Source: a virus. From it: 34,744 nucleotides of DNA. The stretch is from the IMG/VR virus record IMGVR_UViG_3300037493_002050, positions 1 to 34,744 of that record. The stretch is one strand, 5' to 3'. Each line of letters begins with the position of its first letter. Within the stretch, counting starts at the first letter, position 1. Under the pieces are notes generated by a model. The model saw only the letters and a list, made by a program, of their open reading frames with translations. It had not been told where the DNA came from and did not search any database. The position numbers and the translations under genes are program-made. Below are positions 4,702-34,744 of the stretch, piece after piece.

Positions 4702-5095
4702 AACATGTGATGGGTGCGGAAAACAACGGCCCATTTGGAAGAGTAGCGGAACCGGGGGATTAAAATTATGCCAACAATGCTGGAGTTGCCACAAAAGCGG
4801 AGAGGATATACAGAAACCAACAAGTTCTAATATCCCCCGCGTTTCTGCCAAAAGAGCAAAGAAGGATGCGGAATACGCTAAATTAAGAATAAGATACTTA
4901 ACTGAAAATAATCTCTGCCGGGTAATGGTGAACGGATGTGGCAATGCTGCCACTGATGTTCATCATACTTTTGCTGGGTCAAACAGAGATGCATTTTATT
5001 TAGTACAAAGTACATGGATACCAGTTTGTAGAAACTGCCATGACTGGATACATTCCCACCCAAGTGAAGCTAGAACAATGAATTGGTTAAAATAA
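4688..5095 (+). CDS. HNH endonuclease with N-terminal zinc finger
   Basis: The product has 135 residues. The N-terminus holds a four-cysteine zinc ribbon (CDGCG at 7-11 and CQQCWSC at about 28-34). The C-terminal half has the HNH layout: Cys-x-x-x-x-x-Cys (CRVMVNGC), then DVHHTFAG with the catalytic His pair, then PVCRNCHDWIH with a metal-site Cys pair and the final His. HNH enzymes cut DNA with one metal ion. The two-zinc arrangement is reminiscent of NinG/Rap-type recombination nucleases, which would fit the helicase next door. A homing nuclease is the alternative. Base composition is odd: bases 4741-4800 are 50% GC. Confidence 0.85.
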   Translation: MIKLKTCDGCGKQRPIWKSSGTGGLKLCQQCWSCHKSGEDIQKPTSSNIPRVSAKRAKKDAEYAKLRIRYLTENNLCRVMVNGCGNAATDVHHTFAGSNRDAFYLVQSTWIPVCRNCHDWIHSHPSEARTMNWLK

Positions 5096-5100
5096 AAATT

Positions 5101-6192
5101 ATGACAAAAGATGATATTCAATTAGAAGCATTAGCTGCAACTGATGGAAGACAAAGATGTAGTGTAGTATTAGGAACTGGTGTTGGTAAGACTTTAGTTG
5201 GTCTTAACCATATGGATAGAAATACTACTCCACTAATGAAGTGTCTTGTTGTTGCACCTAAAAGATCTATCTTTACCTCTTGGAAAGATGATGCTGAAAA
5301 GTTTGATAAGCAATACCTAATAGGGAGAATGGTGTTTACCACATATTTGAGCTTAAATAAACATAACCCGGCTGATTATGATGTACTCTATTTGGATGAA
5401 TCTCATAGTTTACTTGACAGTCACCGGTCTTTCTTGGAAAACTATAAAGGAAAAATACTAGGTCTTACTGGTACACCACCTAAACATAAGAACTCAGAAA
5501 AAGGTAGATTATGTCAAGAGTTTTGTCCAACAATATTTACATTTAAAGCAGATGATGCTATTGAGAATGGAATATTGAATGACTATAAAATTATAGTACA
5601 TGAAATTGAACTTGGAACAGCTACAAACTACCAGGTAACCATGAAGAATAAGTCTTTCCTTACAAGTGAGCAACAGAACTATACTTATTGGTCTAGAAGA
5701 ATTGAAGCAGGTTCCGGAAATATGCACATGCTCAGAGTAATGAGAATGAAAGCTATGATGGAGTATCCTAGTAAGGAGCGCTATGCAAAGATTCTATTTA
5801 GCAGTATCAATAGTAAATGTATTCTTTTTGCAAATACACAGGATCAAGCAGATAGATTATGTGATTACAGTTACCATAGTAATAATAGCAGATCAGATGA
5901 GAACTTAGAAAAGTTTAAAACCGGTAAAATTTTAAAACTTTCTACTGTATTGCAGTTAAATGAAGGTGTTAATATATCTAACCTTAGACAAGGTATTATT
6001 ATGCATGCATATGGTAATGAAAGAAAAGCTGCTCAAAGAATTGGTAGATTACTCCGTCTTAATCCGGATGACAAAGCAGTTGTACATATACTATGTTATA
6101 TAGGTACAATAGATGAAAAATGGGTTAAAGAAGCCTTAGAAGGATTTGATCAGACTAAGATTATGTGGAAGGATTATGGCATAAAACTATAA
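5101..6192 (+). CDS. Superfamily 2 DNA helicase
   Basis: The product has 363 residues from the ATG at 5101 (context AAAAATTATG). SF2 motifs occur in order: a Q-like Gln at residue 7, Walker A GTGVGKT (25-31), motif Ia VVAPKRS (50-56), motif II LDESH (98-102), motif III LTGTPP (122-127), motif V LNEGVNISNL (286-295) and motif VI QRIGRLLR (312-319). The spacing matches the compact phage DEAD/SNF2-type helicases found in replication modules. It would use ATP to move on or remodel DNA, for instance at replication forks or recombination intermediates. It follows the HNH gene by five bases, and the two may act together. Confidence 0.93.
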   Translation: MTKDDIQLEALAATDGRQRCSVVLGTGVGKTLVGLNHMDRNTTPLMKCLVVAPKRSIFTSWKDDAEKFDKQYLIGRMVFTTYLSLNKHNPADYDVLYLDESHSLLDSHRSFLENYKGKILGLTGTPPKHKNSEKGRLCQEFCPTIFTFKADDAIENGILNDYKIIVHEIELGTATNYQVTMKNKSFLTSEQQNYTYWSRRIEAGSGNMHMLRVMRMKAMMEYPSKERYAKILFSSINSKCILFANTQDQADRLCDYSYHSNNSRSDENLEKFKTGKILKLSTVLQLNEGVNISNLRQGIIMHAYGNERKAAQRIGRLLRLNPDDKAVVHILCYIGTIDEKWVKEALEGFDQTKIMWKDYGIKL

Positions 6193-6194
6193 TT

Positions 6195-6449
6195 ATGGAA
6201 ATCATAAAAGATTATAAACTAATTTTGTTAAATGATGAAGTAAATAGTTTTTCATATATCATGGCTTGTTTAATTAGATTTTGTATGCATGAACCAATCC
6301 AAGCTGAACAGTGTTCTTTAATTGCTCACAGTGTGGGTCAATGTACTATAAAGTATGGTTCATACTATGCTATGGAAAATATGAAGGATCAACTTGCTGG
6401 TTTAAATATTAAAGTAAAATTAGAAATTAATGAAAGCAATTTGTATTGA
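6195..6449 (+). CDS. ClpS-like adaptor of the Clp protease
   Basis: The product has 84 residues from the ATG at 6195. It matches the ClpS core: the YKLILLNDE strand (residues 7-15), a helix, then AEQCSLIAHSVGQ (37-49), a helix with Tyr/Met and a final IKVKLE strand. Residues that hold the N-degron in ClpS are visible as N13, D14, E15 and H45. The gatekeeper methionine position is F19. In bacteria ClpS binds proteins with destabilising N-termini and hands them to ClpAP. The phage protein starts about six residues before the core and so lacks the N-terminal extension that E. coli ClpS needs for delivery. It could redirect or block host Clp; that is inference. It overlaps the next gene by 20 bases. 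Confidence 0.85.
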   Translation: MEIIKDYKLILLNDEVNSFSYIMACLIRFCMHEPIQAEQCSLIAHSVGQCTIKYGSYYAMENMKDQLAGLNIKVKLEINESNLY

Positions 6450-6699
6450 TGACAAAAACCGTCCTGCTAAAGTTCCACAATATGAGTGGATTGTTGAAGG
6501 AGAAACATATACTATAACTAAGATAGTAAGAATGGGACTCCAGGATAACAAATTTGGTGTATTACTAAAAGAAGTTCAGTTAAGTTCTCAATCTTTTCCT
6601 TATGAATTATATGATGCTGATAGGTTCATTCCATTAGACATTAAAATATATGAAAAAGAAGAAGAAACTGTTAAAGAAGCTGACTTTGAATTAATTTAA
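6430..6699 (+). CDS. Small conserved phage protein
   Basis: The product has 89 residues and is beta-rich, likely a small barrel: MKAICIDDKNRPAKVP, then EWIVEGETYTITKIV and the strand VLLKEVQL. It ends in an acidic tail. Proteins with this 'CIDDKNRP-x-x-P, W-x-x-x-G-x-x-Y' pattern are common small genes in Bacteroidota phages and have no assigned role. It begins inside the ClpS gene (20-base overlap), so translation is probably coupled. Confidence 0.8.
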   Translation: MKAICIDDKNRPAKVPQYEWIVEGETYTITKIVRMGLQDNKFGVLLKEVQLSSQSFPYELYDADRFIPLDIKIYEKEEETVKEADFELI

Positions 6700-18818: not shown

Positions 18819-19250
18819 ATGATTTTTGATAAAGAAGAAACAAGAAACTTATTAAACATGCTGCGTTCTGCAGATAAAGAAAATGCTACTGTAGCATTTG
18901 AGGCTCTTAAGGGAGTTGATGCAAAAAAATATTTAGGGGAATTAATTACATTGTATAAGTTTGGTAAACACACCCTTCAAGAATGGAAGACTAATTGTCC
19001 CAAACCTGCTGCTTTAATTATAAAGACAGTAGAGCCTTATGTAAATTCTGATGAATGGGGTGCACTAAGTACTGGTGCATGTCTTTCAGCAATTACAGGC
19101 AATAAACCTAGTAATCAGTCTATTGAACTCTTTATGGAGTTATTTACTGAAAGTATGATGGGATTCCTTGGTCAAATGGGATATCCGGCAGATAAATTTG
19201 ACATAATAGTAAAACTAAAAGAAAATGGACAAAGCACAGAGTCTAAGTAA
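18819..19250 (+). CDS. Hypothetical protein
   Basis: The product has 143 residues and is mostly helical, with ENATVAFEALKGVDAKKYLGEL and a C-terminal ELFTESMMGFLGQMGY helix. There are no motifs of known enzymes and no membrane segments. It overlaps the HELLH/VWA gene by 26 bases and could be part of the same functional unit. Function is unknown. Confidence 0.75.
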   Translation: MIFDKEETRNLLNMLRSADKENATVAFEALKGVDAKKYLGELITLYKFGKHTLQEWKTNCPKPAALIIKTVEPYVNSDEWGALSTGACLSAITGNKPSNQSIELFMELFTESMMGFLGQMGYPADKFDIIVKLKENGQSTESK

Positions 19251-20535
19251 AACAGCCAAAGATTTGATGTTGAAAGAGCCCTATTACGGGTTCTTTCTCA
19301 TTATGTTGAATAAGTTGTGGAGCAATAAAGTGCCTACAGCAGGTGTAGGAAAAAATGGTATTAACTATCAGTTGGTAGTTAATCCTGATTTCTGGGAAAA
19401 GTTAAGTGACCTTAATAGATTAGGTTTACTTAAGCATGAATTATTGCATATTGCTTTTGGTCATCTCACTACTGTATTTAAGTTTAGTGATAGAAGATTA
19501 GCTAATGTTGCTATGGATATGGAAATTAATCAGTATATTGAAAGCTCTTGGCTTCCAGGTGGTGACTTAAGTTCTGATGAATTCAAGCAACTTAAAGAAG
19601 CTGTTAAAGCTGAGATGGAATTAGCCAAAGAAAATAATGCTACTGCAGAAGAACTTCTTGCAATTAGTGAGAAATTACCTTCTAGGGGCATTATGATTGA
19701 TGACTATGAAGAACTTAACCTTGATAGAAAAGCAGGTGCCAGATATTACTATGACAAACTTAAACAAGCAAAAGATGAGAAAGATCAGAACGGCACAAGT
19801 GGCTCTCCGGACTTTGATGATCTTTGTGACCAAATGGATTCTGGTGATGGTGATTCTTTGCCTGACCATAGTACATGGGATGAGTTTGAGAATCTTAGTG
19901 AGGCTGAACAAAAGCTTATTGAGAAACAAGTACAGAAAATACTCTCAGATGCAAAAGAACAGACCGTTAAGAAAAGAGGAACAGTTCCCGGAGAAATTGA
20001 GGGGGTCATTGTAATTGATGAGATAGTTGCACCTAAGTTTGACTGGAGAGGATACATCAGAAGATTTACTGGAATTAGTACTAAAGTCTTTACTAAAAAG
20101 ATTAGAAGAAAAGAGAATAGAAGATTCTCTGACAATCCGGGTCTTAAGATAAAGATGAAACAACACATGTTATTAGCTATTGATACTTCAGGTTCTGTAA
20201 GTAATGATGAGCTATTAGAGTTTATGAATGAGATTCATCATATCTACAAAGCAGGTGTTGATATTACTATAGTACAATGTGATACAAGTATCCGTAGTAT
20301 TGAAGCTTACAGAGGTAAGAATGATCTTAAAGTACATGGTAGAGGAGGAACTGAATTTGATCCTGTCCTAGAATATTATAATGATAATAGTAAAAATTAT
20401 ACAAGCCTAGTATATTTTACTGATGGAGAATGCAATGCAAGTGTAAAACCAAAAGGTAATGTCCTTTGGGTTATATCAGAGAGATCAGAAATGAATAATG
20501 ATCTGCCAGGCAAAGTGATTAAATTAGAACTATAA
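19225..20535 (+). CDS. HELLH metallopeptidase-like and VWA domain protein
   Basis: The product has 436 residues. The N-terminal domain contains HELLHIAFGH (71-80), a zincin site with His71, Glu72, His75 and a likely third ligand His80. An acidic, disordered middle (about 180-230) follows. The C-terminal VWA-like domain has the MIDAS motif DTSGS (320-324) and a later YFTDGE. This is the DUF2201-type layout of putative peptidases that work with MoxR ATPases. The next gene is such an ATPase, so the pair should form a chaperone- or protease-like complex. The target is unknown; virion assembly or host protein maturation are guesses. Confidence 0.88.
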   Translation: MDKAQSLSKTAKDLMLKEPYYGFFLIMLNKLWSNKVPTAGVGKNGINYQLVVNPDFWEKLSDLNRLGLLKHELLHIAFGHLTTVFKFSDRRLANVAMDMEINQYIESSWLPGGDLSSDEFKQLKEAVKAEMELAKENNATAEELLAISEKLPSRGIMIDDYEELNLDRKAGARYYYDKLKQAKDEKDQNGTSGSPDFDDLCDQMDSGDGDSLPDHSTWDEFENLSEAEQKLIEKQVQKILSDAKEQTVKKRGTVPGEIEGVIVIDEIVAPKFDWRGYIRRFTGISTKVFTKKIRRKENRRFSDNPGLKIKMKQHMLLAIDTSGSVSNDELLEFMNEIHHIYKAGVDITIVQCDTSIRSIEAYRGKNDLKVHGRGGTEFDPVLEYYNDNSKNYTSLVYFTDGECNASVKPKGNVLWVISERSEMNNDLPGKVIKLEL

Positions 20536-20546
20536 AAACAAAAGTT

Positions 20547-21716
20547 ATGAGTCAAGTACAATTGAACGTAGAAGAATTAAAAGATTTTATTAAACACATG
20601 GTTGGAAATAACCAGCATATTCAAGCTGAAGGTAAAGTACCTGTAGCAATTAATATTGAGGGTGATGCCGGACTTGGTAAAACTTCTGCTATTATGCAGT
20701 TGGGTAAAGAGATGAATATGCAAGTTGTAAAACTTAATCTATCTCAGTTAGAAGAATTAGGTGACTTAGTAGGTTTTCCTGTTAAAGAATTTGAGATCCA
20801 GAATGCTGAAGGTAAAACAACATGGATTAATGAATCTCAGATAAATGCAGCTACTACAAAAGGATACAAAGTTATTGGTAAGAGAATGTCTCATGCTGCT
20901 CCTGAATGGATTCAAGGTAAAGGTGAGGGTGGTTTCCTAGTATTGGATGACTACACTCGTGCTGACCACAGATTCATGCAAGCAACTATGGAGATCTTAG
21001 ATAGACAAGAATATGTTTCTTGGAAGCTACCTAAAAACTGGCATGTTATTTTGACTACTAATCCAGACAACGGTGACTATAATGTTACTAGTCTAGATGT
21101 AGCTCAGAAGACTAGATTTATTTCTGTTGAGTTAAAGTATGATGTAAATGTATGGGCTAAGTGGGCAGAGACTGCTAAGATTGATGGTAGATGTATCAAT
21201 TTTATGTTGATGAATCCAGAATTGGTAACTCAAAGAGTTAATCCAAGATCTATCACTACATTCTTTAATGGCATAAGTTCTATTCCTAAGTTTGAGGATA
21301 ACTTACCTATTGTTCAAATGATAGGTGAAGGTTCTGTTGGTGTAGACTTTAGTTCTATGTTTACTATGTTTATTAATAATAAACTAGATAGAATTATTTC
21401 TCCGGAAGACATCATGACTAAAGATGAGCAGTATGTTATGAATGCTTTGACAAATGCGGTAGGGCAAGATAATGATTTCCGTGCAGATTTGTCTAGTGTA
21501 ATTGCAACAAGAGTAATTAATTATTCTTTAGTGCATGCAGATACTAAGTCAGTTCCTGATGCAATGATCAACCGTTTGGTTAAACTTACAACAGATTGTA
21601 AAGCATTTACAGATGACTTGAGATATTTCATGATTAAAGAGATTGTTAATGGAAATAAAGTTAAATTTTCCAAACTAATGATGAATAATAGCGTGGTGAA
21701 AATGGCTGTCAAGTAA
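20547..21716 (+). CDS. MoxR-type AAA+ ATPase
   Basis: The product has 389 residues. Walker A is GDAGLGKT (39-46). Walker B is FLVLDD (130-135). Sensor 1 is ILTTNPDN (168-175). The arginine-bearing QKTRF (187-191) matches the MoxR/dynein-branch pattern. The C-terminal 150 residues are helical. MoxR ATPases act with VWA proteins to remodel or activate protein complexes; the upstream gene, 11 bases away, is the VWA partner. A terminator lies 60 bases after its stop, so the pair may close one transcript. Confidence 0.9.
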   Translation: MSQVQLNVEELKDFIKHMVGNNQHIQAEGKVPVAINIEGDAGLGKTSAIMQLGKEMNMQVVKLNLSQLEELGDLVGFPVKEFEIQNAEGKTTWINESQINAATTKGYKVIGKRMSHAAPEWIQGKGEGGFLVLDDYTRADHRFMQATMEILDRQEYVSWKLPKNWHVILTTNPDNGDYNVTSLDVAQKTRFISVELKYDVNVWAKWAETAKIDGRCINFMLMNPELVTQRVNPRSITTFFNGISSIPKFEDNLPIVQMIGEGSVGVDFSSMFTMFINNKLDRIISPEDIMTKDEQYVMNALTNAVGQDNDFRADLSSVIATRVINYSLVHADTKSVPDAMINRLVKLTTDCKAFTDDLRYFMIKEIVNGNKVKFSKLMMNNSVVKMAVK

Positions 21717-29349: not shown

Positions 29350-32300
29350 TTATTTTGATAGAGTTGATTGAAATGTTTTCCATGCTTGTTCAGGATCCAT
29401 GTTATAACCAGAGAAGCCCATTACTTTTAAAAATGCTGCCCAAGCTTTATTATCTCCTTTTTTCCAAACACCTGTTTCGCGTTTATATTCTTCAGTGATA
29501 TTCCAAGGCATTACTTGACTACTGAATTTGATTAGTCTTTCAAATGTACTAGCCATAGCTGAAGGTGACCTCATTACCCTATAAGCATCAAGCGGATTGA
29601 TGTAAGAAGCTGTTTCAGATCTCATCCTCATTGCCTCATAAAGTATAAAGTTATACCCATATGCATCTTGAATTTCTTCTCTTTCATCATCATCTGGATC
29701 AATTAATAAACGGGTCATTACAAATGCTAATGTACTCAAAGCAAAAATTATACTAAGTTCAGTAAGTACTTTTGTAATCTGAGCTTTTTGATAAGGCGTA
29801 TATGTTGACCAGTTTTTAAGTACATTAAATTTATACTGTTTTATATCTCCTAACATTGTATCTGCAAAAGTTCTATAGAATCCTTCAGTTGGTGCTCCAA
29901 TTTCATGATCCATAGATACACCTTTAACTCTTCTTTTGTACCCCGGTACAACATGCTTTCTATACATTAACACCAAACGGCCAAGAGAATATTTTTGTAA
30001 TGTACCTTTATCAAAGTCATTGTAGACACCATGCATGTATTTATTTAAACCATGTAATCTTGCTTGGATATCTTGTCTTTGGGTTTCTCCAAAAGGAACA
30101 TAAAGAGTATTACCCTGAGCATCTAATTCTATTTCACCTTTACTATTTGTTTTTGCAATTTTAATTTTGCTGTGCGCTTTGTCTGCACCGTAAGTATTAT
30201 AAGCTTGAAGTAATGTGATTTCTTCCTTTGTAGTTGTATCTAATACTTTAATAGCATCAAACATAGCCAACATAGTAGATACTTGGATTTCATATTCCCC
30301 AAAGTGTTGGTTAAAGAATAAAGTATCTGTACGCATTAATTTATTAAGCATGCTCATACTTACTTTCTTACCATAGTTATCTTTGAAGTTACCTTGCATT
30401 GGATCATACATTTCTACTATCTTACCTAGTAGGCTTGTAGGGGCAGGTTTTCCAAAGTCAGCTAAGACTCCCGGAAGATTTTTTGCAAGATAAGCTTTAC
30501 CTCTTCTTAAGTTTTTAGTATTAAAGAACTGACCACCAGCGGCTTCAATAAAAACTTGTATATTAGCTTGTAATGAATTGGCTACACCTTTAAGTAAATC
30601 AGCTGCAATAGTTGTAATTGCTGAAAAGGACATAGCAGTATTGGTAAGTTTAGTAAGAGATAATCCAAAAGCAATCTCTTCAGCTTTTTGCATCTCACCA
30701 TAAATTACCATATCTATAAATGCATCAAGATGTTTTTTAGAATAACTTTCACCATTCTGACGGATAAATTCTTCATAACCAAGTTTCTTTGCAAATGCAT
30801 CCATAACAGCTTGACCTTTACTATTTGTTTCAGGAACTTTACGGGCTCCAACAATAGCTTTCATAAGTGAGATCTCAGCATTTACATTATTCATTGCTTC
30901 ATATTTATTTGCCATAGCACTAAATACAAGAACAGACATTGCAAAATCCAATGTTACATCCTTAGCATCCATCTGCTGGGTATAATAAATTGGTAAGAAC
31001 TTTACATCATCTCCTGATAAATTTGCTAATTGAAATTCAGTATCATATGATTGAACTTTAATAGCTTCTTTTACATTTGTTGTGATAAGATCTTTTAAAC
31101 CATTTTGCATAAGTCTTTCTAAGTCAGACTTAGAAACAGATGGAACACGGAAACCTTTTTGCTGTGATTCAGGAAGTTTAGCTTGAGCTTCAAAGTAAAT
31201 CTTAAGCAATTTAGCATGGTATCTACCTTTCTCATTTTTAGCAACATCATTAGAATCATACATTTGATCCCATTTATTACTCTTATAATAATTAGAAGGG
31301 ATAGCAAGGTCATCAAAGTAAGTTACAACACCATTGTATTCATTGACATTTTTTCTTTGCCATTTGTTGTAGTCATCTTCACTAATGATTTTATTGTCTC
31401 TATCTTTCTGCATCTGGAGAATGATTGCATCTCTTTCAGATTTTGGTCTTGCTTGAGTATTATCTTTATACCATTTGTTACGGGCTTCCCACCAAGCCTT
31501 ACTTTTGGCAGCTTCTGCCCTAGTAGCCTTTTCTCCAACTTTTAATGGTAATGGGCCTAACTTTTCAAAGAACTCTTTCTTTGCTTTGTTAAACTTACTC
31601 ATATCAAACTTCTGAACAAACTGTACTTCTTTTCTTGTTCCAGAAATAGAACCATCCTTTTCATAAACAGGGATTTCTACTTCATCAAATATACCTTCAT
31701 TAAACTTTGCAGTATTATCTTTACCACCGGGTGCAGTAGTTTTATATTTATTAAATGCTTCAACTAATTCATCTCTTACTTTGATATCTTTTTGTCTTGC
31801 AAATTCTATCTGACTTTTAATTAACTTAGCAAATAAAGCTAGAGCACTGTCACCAGATGTAATAAGTGGAGAAATTAAAAAGTCAATAACCCCTTCATCT
31901 CTATTAGCCATCTTAAGAATTCTTTCCATTGATTCTTGATCAACATCAAAGCCTTCAAATAGACTTAGTCTATCTTCAAGTCTCTTGAGTTCTTTTGCTT
32001 TTCTTTTCTCAGACATTCTTGTATTTGCAGTAACAGCAGCAATTTCTTTTTCTAATCTTGCTACTTCTTCAGGAATGGTTTTGTCCTGTAGGGTTGACTT
32101 ATACTCTACTAGGGTTTCTGCCATAAGAGGAATAGCTTCTGTGATTACTTTTTTCTTCACCTTGTCACGGATTTTAATAGCATCCGTTAACATTTTTTGT
32201 GGTGTCATTGGTCCATATACATCATCTACTCCTGCACCTGTTAGAAAATAGTCCATCATATCTTGTGAATCTATTTCATCAAGAATAGAATAACTATTTG

Positions 32301-32784
32301 CAAAATCATTAATACCAGTAAGGTCAATCATGATTTCTTTTGAAGTCATGTTTTGTTTGTTTCTCAGTAAGTTTGCAAATCTTTTCTCTACTTGTTGTGC
32401 TTTATCATATGCATCTTTAACAAACATATTAATTGAAGCTACACCATCCATAGTTTCTATTGCAGAAAGCAATTCATTTAATTTACTTTTCTTGTACTTT
32501 ACATTTGCAATCTTTTTACTATTTAAGATCTCAATCTGTCTATTAAGATAAATTTTAATTCTTTGTACTAGTTTAGAAAAATCATCAGTAGGCTCTAACT
32601 CTTCTTGTCCAGGTTCACCTTCACGCTCATCTTCATAGTTTTCATCTTTAACCTCAACATTTAAGTCAGGATTTAAATCAAACTCTTCTTTAATCCATTG
32701 GACTCTAGCCTCATCTTCATTACCGTGATTTTTTGCAAGAATGTTTTGCCATTCTCTACTTGTTTTTCTTGGACAACTTAACAT
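29350..32784 (-). CDS. Very large helical phage protein, possible virion cargo
   Basis: The product has 1144 residues. It starts MLSCPRKTSREWQNIL, then has an acidic linker (EDEREGEPGQEELEPTDD) and a long helical body with many Lys, Glu and Asn. Hydrophobic helices occur at about residues 715-755 (MSFSAITTIAADLLKG, ANSLQANIQVFIEAAGG) and near 1035-1060 (LSIIFALSTLAFVMTRLLI). No polymerase or peptidase motif is visible. Length, helical content, scattered membrane-like segments and the late-type operon fit an internal virion protein injected with the DNA; this is inference. It overlaps the upstream gene by seven bases. Confidence 0.8.
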   Translation of the reverse strand: MLSCPRKTSREWQNILAKNHGNEDEARVQWIKEEFDLNPDLNVEVKDENYEDEREGEPGQEELEPTDDFSKLVQRIKIYLNRQIEILNSKKIANVKYKKSKLNELLSAIETMDGVASINMFVKDAYDKAQQVEKRFANLLRNKQNMTSKEIMIDLTGINDFANSYSILDEIDSQDMMDYFLTGAGVDDVYGPMTPQKMLTDAIKIRDKVKKKVITEAIPLMAETLVEYKSTLQDKTIPEEVARLEKEIAAVTANTRMSEKRKAKELKRLEDRLSLFEGFDVDQESMERILKMANRDEGVIDFLISPLITSGDSALALFAKLIKSQIEFARQKDIKVRDELVEAFNKYKTTAPGGKDNTAKFNEGIFDEVEIPVYEKDGSISGTRKEVQFVQKFDMSKFNKAKKEFFEKLGPLPLKVGEKATRAEAAKSKAWWEARNKWYKDNTQARPKSERDAIILQMQKDRDNKIISEDDYNKWQRKNVNEYNGVVTYFDDLAIPSNYYKSNKWDQMYDSNDVAKNEKGRYHAKLLKIYFEAQAKLPESQQKGFRVPSVSKSDLERLMQNGLKDLITTNVKEAIKVQSYDTEFQLANLSGDDVKFLPIYYTQQMDAKDVTLDFAMSVLVFSAMANKYEAMNNVNAEISLMKAIVGARKVPETNSKGQAVMDAFAKKLGYEEFIRQNGESYSKKHLDAFIDMVIYGEMQKAEEIAFGLSLTKLTNTAMSFSAITTIAADLLKGVANSLQANIQVFIEAAGGQFFNTKNLRRGKAYLAKNLPGVLADFGKPAPTSLLGKIVEMYDPMQGNFKDNYGKKVSMSMLNKLMRTDTLFFNQHFGEYEIQVSTMLAMFDAIKVLDTTTKEEITLLQAYNTYGADKAHSKIKIAKTNSKGEIELDAQGNTLYVPFGETQRQDIQARLHGLNKYMHGVYNDFDKGTLQKYSLGRLVLMYRKHVVPGYKRRVKGVSMDHEIGAPTEGFYRTFADTMLGDIKQYKFNVLKNWSTYTPYQKAQITKVLTELSIIFALSTLAFVMTRLLIDPDDDEREEIQDAYGYNFILYEAMRMRSETASYINPLDAYRVMRSPSAMASTFERLIKFSSQVMPWNITEEYKRETGVWKKGDNKAWAAFLKVMGFSGYNMDPEQAWKTFQSTLSK

Positions 32785-33701
32785 ATTGCTTTTAATAAGG
32801 TTTCTAATACTTTATTTAATTCTCCTTCAGTTTTTGCATCTCTTAAAGACTCATAAATATCTGTAGTATCAATACCTTTTACAGCAAGATACTCATCAAA
32901 ACTTTGTTCTCTAATCATTTGCATAACAGCTCTAAAGATTCTATCTCTTTTTGCTTCATTAACGGGAACACCTGGATCTATTTCTGGAATCATTTCTCCA
33001 GTTTCCAAATCCATATCTCTAATATAAACATCATTGGTAAACTTATCTACGGAATTGTATAAACCTTTATTGTTTAACTGCCATTTTAAATTTCCAGCCA
33101 TAAACTCAACAGGTTTACGACCATTGTTTGCTTCTACTATAGACTGATAAGTACGTAAACTTTCAGCAATGCTTGGTTCTTCTTCTGTAGGAAGTTCTTC
33201 TTCAAGGTCTTCAGGTACTTCATCTGCTAGAGGTTTAACTCTGGGAGTTATTTCCACTAGAACTCTATTTGTAGTTTTTGTACCACGCAATGTAAAGATA
33301 TCAGGATACAATTCATGCATAGCTTCCATTATACGGATGTTAGGCTTGTAGATTGTTTCCAAAACTTCAGCATTCATAACAGTTGATCCTGAAAATAACC
33401 AACCAGTTGTAACAAAGTAAGCATCTTCATACTTACTAATAACACCTTTAAGCATACTTTTGATTGCTGTCTCTGACATATATGGATTAATCTCCATAGC
33501 TCTCTTAAGATATTTAGGAATGTTTTTCTTTTGCTCTGTAAGCCATTCCTTAACTTCTGTCCTGCTAGGGATATCAAAAGTTGTGTCTTCAGACCTTCCT
33601 TTATTTGTAGGATAGCCACGTACAAAAGCCTCTGCTAGAGTGTCACCATAGACATTCTGCAAAGACTTATATGCTTTATCTGCTTTGTTTATACAACTCA
33701 T
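32778..33701 (-). CDS. Conserved phage protein of the minus-strand operon
   Basis: The product has 307 residues. It begins MSCINKADKAYKSLQNVYGD, a short Cys-bearing start like the next gene's MLSCP. A helical N-terminal domain is followed by an acidic linker (EVPEDLEEELPTEEEP, about 155-170) and a C-terminal domain with QLNNKGLYNSVDKFTND and helices. No family is recognised. One base overlaps the stop of the oxygenase gene upstream and seven overlap the next start, so the operon is translationally coupled. A virion-associated role is likely by position only. Confidence 0.76.
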   Translation of the reverse strand: MSCINKADKAYKSLQNVYGDTLAEAFVRGYPTNKGRSEDTTFDIPSRTEVKEWLTEQKKNIPKYLKRAMEINPYMSETAIKSMLKGVISKYEDAYFVTTGWLFSGSTVMNAEVLETIYKPNIRIMEAMHELYPDIFTLRGTKTTNRVLVEITPRVKPLADEVPEDLEEELPTEEEPSIAESLRTYQSIVEANNGRKPVEFMAGNLKWQLNNKGLYNSVDKFTNDVYIRDMDLETGEMIPEIDPGVPVNEAKRDRIFRAVMQMIREQSFDEYLAVKGIDTTDIYESLRDAKTEGELNKVLETLLKAIC

Positions 33702-34744
33702 TACAACTTACATTTTAAACTCTCAATGTATTCATCTTCTGAATACTCAAAAGGTATGTTTTCAAACTCCGTAATTAAATCTTCTAAGTTACCTAATATT
33801 TTTTTCTGGTCTTCAGTTAGGCCATTGTAAAATTCACTAATTGTAACTGTACTACCTGCAGCTACTGTTTCTACTGGTAACTGTTCAGCATTAATAGCAG
33901 GTACTATTGGCATCCCCGGAAGAAGTGGTTCTACTCTTCTCATAGTAATAGTCACCCTATAAGAGCCAGCTGGATATGTTTTACCATCAATTCTAGTAGT
34001 AAGTTCAGGTAAGAATGTATCTTGTTTAGTAGGGAATGTTCTATGCCATACTTCTCTATTTACACCATCAACTCCAAACACATAACCTGTTCCAGCTTCT
34101 AAACTCAACTCACCTGCTCCAGGTATTCTTTCAATTGAGAAATTACCTTTACCACCAATATTAATTCCAATTACAGGATACTGTATAGCTGATCTACTCT
34201 CATCAACATCATTATGTGAAGAAATAAATGAATCATTTTCATAAAGATTAATGATAGCTCCATCATAATTTGTCATGTCAACTCCTGTAGCTTTTTGCAT
34301 AAGCTCTTTAAATCTTGGTGTAATCTGTCCAAGAGGTTGGTCATTGATAGACACATTATAATAACCATACTTAGTTTTATTACCTGGATTAATTACATCA
34401 GGAATATTGATAGCAGCTCTTCCAACATTATTGTTTTTATAATCCCATCTTAAACCAAGACCGATCATTTTACTTGCATTCTTACCTTTATTAGTTTTAG
34501 CAGCTTGTTCTTCAAGATATGGTTTCAAATAATCAAATAACTCCATTTGTTCATCTTGAGTTAAAGCTCCTTGATTAACATAAACACCTGGTACAACTTC
34601 TTGACCTTTTGGAATACCTTCAGTCTGAGCTACAGGTTCTACAAATTGATTTAATGTATTTTCATAAACATCTCTGATAGCTTGTTTAGCTGCAGCTTCT
34701 ACTTCAGGTCCTTTATATTGTTCTCTTGGTACCCACTTACCTTC
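33701..34744 (-). CDS. AlkB-like 2OG-Fe(II) oxygenase domain protein, 5' end outside window
   Basis: The frame stays open to the right edge: 66 codons precede the Met at 34546, with no stop. That Met is therefore probably internal and the gene is partial at its 5' end. The oxygenase domain shows NLYENDSFISSHNDVDE, with the iron-binding His (codon at 34216) and Asp two residues later. The second iron ligand is the His in EVWHRTFP (34045). The 2-oxoglutarate Arg lies in YRVTITMRRV. This is the AlkB pattern, enzymes that oxidise methyl groups from DNA or RNA bases or hydroxylate protein side chains. About 75 residues of Pro- and Glu-rich tail follow. The substrate is unknown. Confidence 0.85.
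   Translation of the reverse strand, partial: EGKWVPREQYKGPEVEAAAKQAIRDVYENTLNQFVEPVAQTEGIPKGQEVVPGVYVNQGALTQDEQMELFDYLKPYLEEQAAKTNKGKNASKMIGLGLRWDYKNNNVGRAAINIPDVINPGNKTKYGYYNVSINDQPLGQITPRFKELMQKATGVDMTNYDGAIINLYENDSFISSHNDVDESRSAIQYPVIGINIGGKGNFSIERIPGAGELSLEAGTGYVFGVDGVNREVWHRTFPTKQDTFLPELTTRIDGKTYPAGSYRVTITMRRVEPLLPGMPIVPAINAEQLPVETVAAGSTVTISEFYNGLTEDQKKILGNLEDLITEFENIPFEYSEDEYIESLKCKL

Follow-up and report, generated by a model that had tools for sequence, protein, structure and literature searches.

The window, meaning the whole 34,744-nucleotide stretch analysed here (positions 1 to 34,744 of IMG/VR virus record IMGVR_UViG_3300037493_002050), carries a short clpS gene situated between two conserved neighbours (Table 1). 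The helicase matches a PHROG DNA helicase family with an E value of 1.9e-41 and, in PADLOC, resembles helicase-bearing defence proteins. All 14 inspected loci have it ahead of clpS, as do the 73 rows used for the helicase tree. The 20-nucleotide overlap between the end of clpS and the following gene is found in 60 of 79 clade members, and each of the 36 loci located through that gene carries clpS directly upstream. The protein encoded downstream has 13 invariant columns in a 34-member alignment. It matched no Pfam family above the cut-off, and a fold search yielded only weak resemblance to SH3-like structures, with no match reaching E ≤ 0.001. Its C-terminal tail is acidic, reading EADLELI in many members, and is modelled with low confidence. 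PADLOC gave no match for the window ClpS or for this neighbour, and a plasmid search was negative. The conserved C-terminal tail of ClpS itself (ESNLY and similar) was considered as a new functional element and rejected, because it arises where clpS runs into the start of the following gene.

Table 1. Positions of the clpS gene, its pocket codon and its conserved neighbours in the window
Feature	Position	Strand	Basis and remarks
Superfamily 2 helicase, directly upstream; conserved left neighbour of clpS	5083..6192	+	ORF as listed, TTG start; Pfam ResIII and Helicase_C
Core-only ClpS, 84 aa and stop	6195..6449	+	Pfam PF02617, AlphaFold2 model, PDB fold matches; start common to 79 relatives
Residue 45 codon (equivalent to E. 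coli H66)	6327..6329	+	His codon CAC in the window; Asp codon (GAC or GAT) in L001-L003 and in many relatives
Uncharacterized 89-aa protein; conserved right neighbour	6430..6699	+	Start overlaps the clpS end by 20 nt

Elsewhere in the window, a VWA/putative metallopeptidase protein (DUF2201) lies beside an AAA ATPase that matches a PHROG ATPase family (19225-21716), and the pair resembles MoxR-VWA modules. A 2OG-Fe(II) oxygenase (PF13532; 33701-34546), part of a minus-strand stretch at 29350-34546, is adjoined by ORFs of 307 and 1144 residues, the longer of which has no clear PHROG family.

The assignment of the 84-residue protein to the ClpS family rests on profile and fold, since its PHROGs matches are weak and phmmer recovers ClpS chains only weakly from the PDB sequences. 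The PF02617 (ClpS) profile matches the protein with an E value of 6.8e-14 and 51.9 bits, the curated cut-off being 23. All 84 sequences of an alignment that combines the window protein with its viral and bacterial relatives match the same profile at E ≤ 0.001. The AlphaFold2 model computed from this alignment has a mean pLDDT of 93.5 and a pTM of 0.82. Upon searching the PDB with Foldseek, the model finds solved ClpS structures first, with a TM score of 0.86 to mycobacterial ClpS, and the 38 chains at E ≤ 0.001 are without exception ClpS. One Foldseek match, 4o2x, is listed as a malarial protein and is named ClpS in the PDB sequence search. VIA-align superimposes the model onto Arabidopsis ClpS1 with a Z score of 15.3, and annotated viral ClpS proteins are among the BFVD fold matches. 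The sequence-only reading, which had recognized a phage ClpS-like protein here and proposed comparing a predicted structure with ClpS, is thereby borne out. The score of 28.2 bits against the NCBIfam ClpS equivalogs, whose cut-off is 117, was rejected as an argument against membership. Four chromosomal Bacteroidota ClpS also fall below this cut-off, which therefore does not discriminate. The BFVD matches further include, weakly, the Crass-like phage proteins cr50_1 and cr126_1, annotated as bL12 C-terminal-domain proteins; a resemblance between the ClpS fold and the L7/L12 C-terminal domain is also seen with VIA-align.

Of 394 relatives detected by scanning viral contigs, 80 were kept, and a scan of bacterial genomes gave 80 kept loci, almost all labelled Bacteroidota. 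Both scans employed short peptide patterns, which biases the residue statistics; a search via the downstream gene and a profile-based sample of 50 host ClpS served as less biased checks. In the phylum to which G001 belongs (Flavobacterium psychrolimnae, the genome that holds locus L092), 284 of 296 genomes have ClpS. In a tree of 80 columns, many forks of which are unresolved, the phage proteins group together as a single clade (SH-aLRT 100), which branches among the Bacteroidota ClpS. The gene evolves under purifying selection, with a median dN/dS of 0.32 over 1347 pairs within the phage clade. The core would have been acquired from a bacterial ClpS, probably one of Bacteroidota, and kept by one putatively crAss-like clade.

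The portal protein in the contig of one relative (L205) matches PHROG portal 6547 and the portals of crAss-like phages at 23-34% identity, suggesting that the group sits near the crAss-like phages. No structural gene was identified within the window itself, and searches of the relatives with phrog_2 and PF03237 found no terminase. This large clade of uncultivated, putatively crAss-like phages probably infects Bacteroidota, and the upstream helicase has relatives in Flavobacterium and Bacteroides phages. The host is one that we infer, since the best-scoring isolate portal belongs to a Leptolyngbya phage, in which the genes following the helicase are unrelated to ClpS. Eight relatives of 103-118 kb, not certified complete, contain no ClpP, AAA_2 Clp ATPase or L/F-transferase. 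On the basis of these eight, Clp machinery of the phage's own was rejected, so that a Clp role for the protein would depend on host components. All four Bacteroidota genomes read have a ClpC bearing a VGFG-type loop.

The length of the N-terminal extension was gauged by the position of the residue equivalent to E. coli Asn34, which is residue 13 in the window. This gives an extension of about 4 residues in the window, where E. coli ClpS has 25 and a typical Bacteroidota ClpS about 18. When the nearest ATG is taken, the Asn34 equivalent is residue 13 in 77 and residue 14 in two of the 79 non-redundant clade members, while in the sampled Bacteroidota ClpS it is most often residue 27. An in-frame ATG, GTG or TTG farther upstream is absent in 63 of the 79. 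An in-frame GTG does occur in the window, at 6165; a longer protein starting there was rejected because of those 63 relatives and because L002 and L003 have no matching extension. The fetched viral ClpS from outside the clade, including three from phages of 634-642 kb, mostly have longer N-termini and are placed outside the core-only clade in the ClpS tree, so that the truncation belongs to one lineage. The core-only start is not one odd start codon but is fixed in that lineage. The earlier observation that the protein begins at the ClpS core, lacking an extension, thus extends to 79 relatives. Its companion claim, that the extension matters in E. coli for handing substrates to ClpAP, is in agreement with published work: during delivery the extension passes into the channel of ClpA, which pulls on it, and delivery is inhibited when this entry is blocked (PMC9663308). 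An extension able to enter an AAA+ pore, as expected of a delivery adaptor, is not present in the window, where about 4 residues take the place of the 25 in E. coli.

Residues N13, D14, E15, F19 and H45 of the window protein correspond to N34, D35, D36, M40 and H66 of E. coli ClpS. The equivalents of N34 and D35 are present in 100% of both the phage clade and the 80 pattern-found hosts; in the profile-based host sample D35 is found in 50 of 50 and N34 in 44 of 50. The QAEQC helix is also retained in 100% of the phage clade. Pocket drift is seen in a change of the V65 equivalent to Ala, and the host-conserved Pro at residue 62 has been lost. The helix with which E. coli ClpS docks onto ClpA includes E82 and K84 (PMC12493166). 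Equivalents of these residues are conserved in neither phage nor Bacteroidota ClpS, and docking is therefore unreadable from sequence.

The gatekeeper residue is Phe in 49 of the 50 profile-sampled Bacteroidota ClpS, and the phage clade has Phe in 79% and Tyr in 18%. The sequence-only reading had supposed that Phe in place of Met might alter specificity. As Phe is the rule in the sampled Bacteroidota, it would most simply be inherited and not phage-specific, and a phage adaptation at this site was rejected.

All three residues that contact the alpha-amine (equivalents of N34, D35 and H66) are present in the window. However, 45% of the phage clade have Asp at the H66 position, compared with His in 49 of the 50 sampled hosts. 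Residue 45 changes at least six times on the tree of the neighbouring helicase, a count that phage recombination could inflate, and five times on a ClpS tree built with that column omitted. Over the first 76 codons, the protein of the nearest relative, L001, differs from that of the window in this amino acid alone (dS 0.33, dN 0.005 for the pair). The pocket described earlier as intact is so in the window itself, where N13, D14, E15 and H45 are all found, but not among close relatives, in which His45 alternates with Asp. A cellular ClpS-like locus, L257, in a genome with two matches, has Tyr as gatekeeper together with Asp in place of His66, a combination seen in no other of the 50 sampled.

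A core-only ClpS fold in a phage, considered together with the E. coli extension that is pulled by ClpA, leads naturally to the idea of a binder that does not deliver. The idea is strengthened by the truncation being fixed in one clade and by the lack of a Clp partner in the near-full-length relatives. The reading we favour over the others, quite possible though short of probable, is that the phage ClpS binds host ClpC and/or N-degrons with no efficient delivery and so acts as an anti-adaptor. The protein would dock onto the N-domain of host ClpC and/or hold proteins having destabilising N-termini. As it would offer no segment for the ClpC pore to pull, the bound proteins would not be delivered efficiently. 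By competition with host ClpS, phage or host N-degron proteins might be shielded during infection; alternatively, the substrate choice of ClpCP might be altered. The alternation of His and Asp at residue 45 would tune ligand binding. The clade-wide loss of an extension that sampled host ClpS retain counts for an anti-adaptor, as do the ClpS fold, the fully conserved N34 and D35, the low median dN/dS, the ClpC of the Bacteroidota genomes read and the position of the phage clade among Bacteroidota ClpS. The lack of conservation at the E82 and K84 positions of the docking helix counts against it. Asp45, present in nearly half of the clade, might weaken N-degron binding and would then speak against a simple degron trap. 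It is rather doubtful that these proteins constitute a dedicated viral anti-adaptor family, in which the degron-binding core would block the host N-degron pathway and the His/Asp switch in the pocket would be under host-driven diversifying pressure.

A short start might nevertheless suffice for ClpC, in which case the phage ClpS would be a working delivery adaptor steering host ClpCP onto chosen host or phage proteins. Such a role has been suggested for jumbo-phage ClpS (PMC7824862), and it would be consistent with the conservation of N34 and D35 under purifying selection and with the occurrence of ClpC in the Bacteroidota genomes read. We consider it unlikely: an extension of about 4 residues cannot span the double-ring pore as that of E. 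coli does (PMC9663308), and the sampled host ClpS retain one of about 18. The changes of the H66 equivalent to Asp and of the V65 equivalent to Ala, the lost Pro at residue 62 and the tight synteny and overlap with the 89-residue protein gene might instead point to a ClpS core repurposed away from Clp. It would then bind another partner, for example a different N-terminus or a protein of the phage, and could be tied to the helicase or the 89-residue protein. Synteny alone, however, is no proof of interaction, and with N34, D35 and the QAEQC helix all kept at 100%, repurposing seems distinctly unlikely. That clpS is a captured host gene carried as a neutral passenger with no selected role would suit a gene having no known phenotype. 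Conservation makes this disfavoured and very improbable, given the median dN/dS of 0.32 and the presence of clpS in 36 of 36 loci sampled via the neighbouring gene.

If, as the anti-adaptor reading holds, N-degron delivery is blocked by the core-only ClpS, the protein would represent a natural and widespread viral inhibitor of a bacterial N-end-rule pathway and would point to the importance of that pathway during infection. Natural ClpS variants that differ at a single pocket residue are useful for probing alpha-amine recognition. Among the papers listed by an open-access literature search for ClpS together with crAss, none was relevant. A core-only ClpS that is fixed across a putatively crAss-like clade, and whose pocket repeatedly changes between His and Asp, appears to be new.

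The chromosomal ClpS of Bacteroidota, among which the phage clade branches, have the same core pattern, Phe gatekeeper, QAEQC helix and KxG strand. They differ in that N34 is mostly residue 27 and His66 is found in 49 of 50, whereas in the phages N34 is at 13-14 and 45% have Asp. The ClpAP adaptor ClpS of E. coli shares the fold, N34 and D35, but has a 25-residue extension pulled by ClpA, a Met gatekeeper and the ClpA-docking residues E82 and K84. Other phage-encoded ClpS are those of jumbo and huge phages (AMM43882.1; Agrobacterium phage Atu_ph07 gp708; LR756502, LR745206 and LR756504). For jumbo-phage ClpS, the published proposal is that it supplies host ClpAP with targets (PMC7824862). Atu_ph07, in which ClpS has also been reported, differs from the eight relatives checked in having reported ClpA and ClpP-like genes of its own (PMC6102473). 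The three huge-phage ClpS that were fetched differ in their longer N-termini and His66. The ClpS-like domain of yeast Ubr1, an N-recognin, has the same fold (VIA-align Z 9.7), but it lies within a large eukaryotic ubiquitin ligase, whereas the phage ClpS stands alone.
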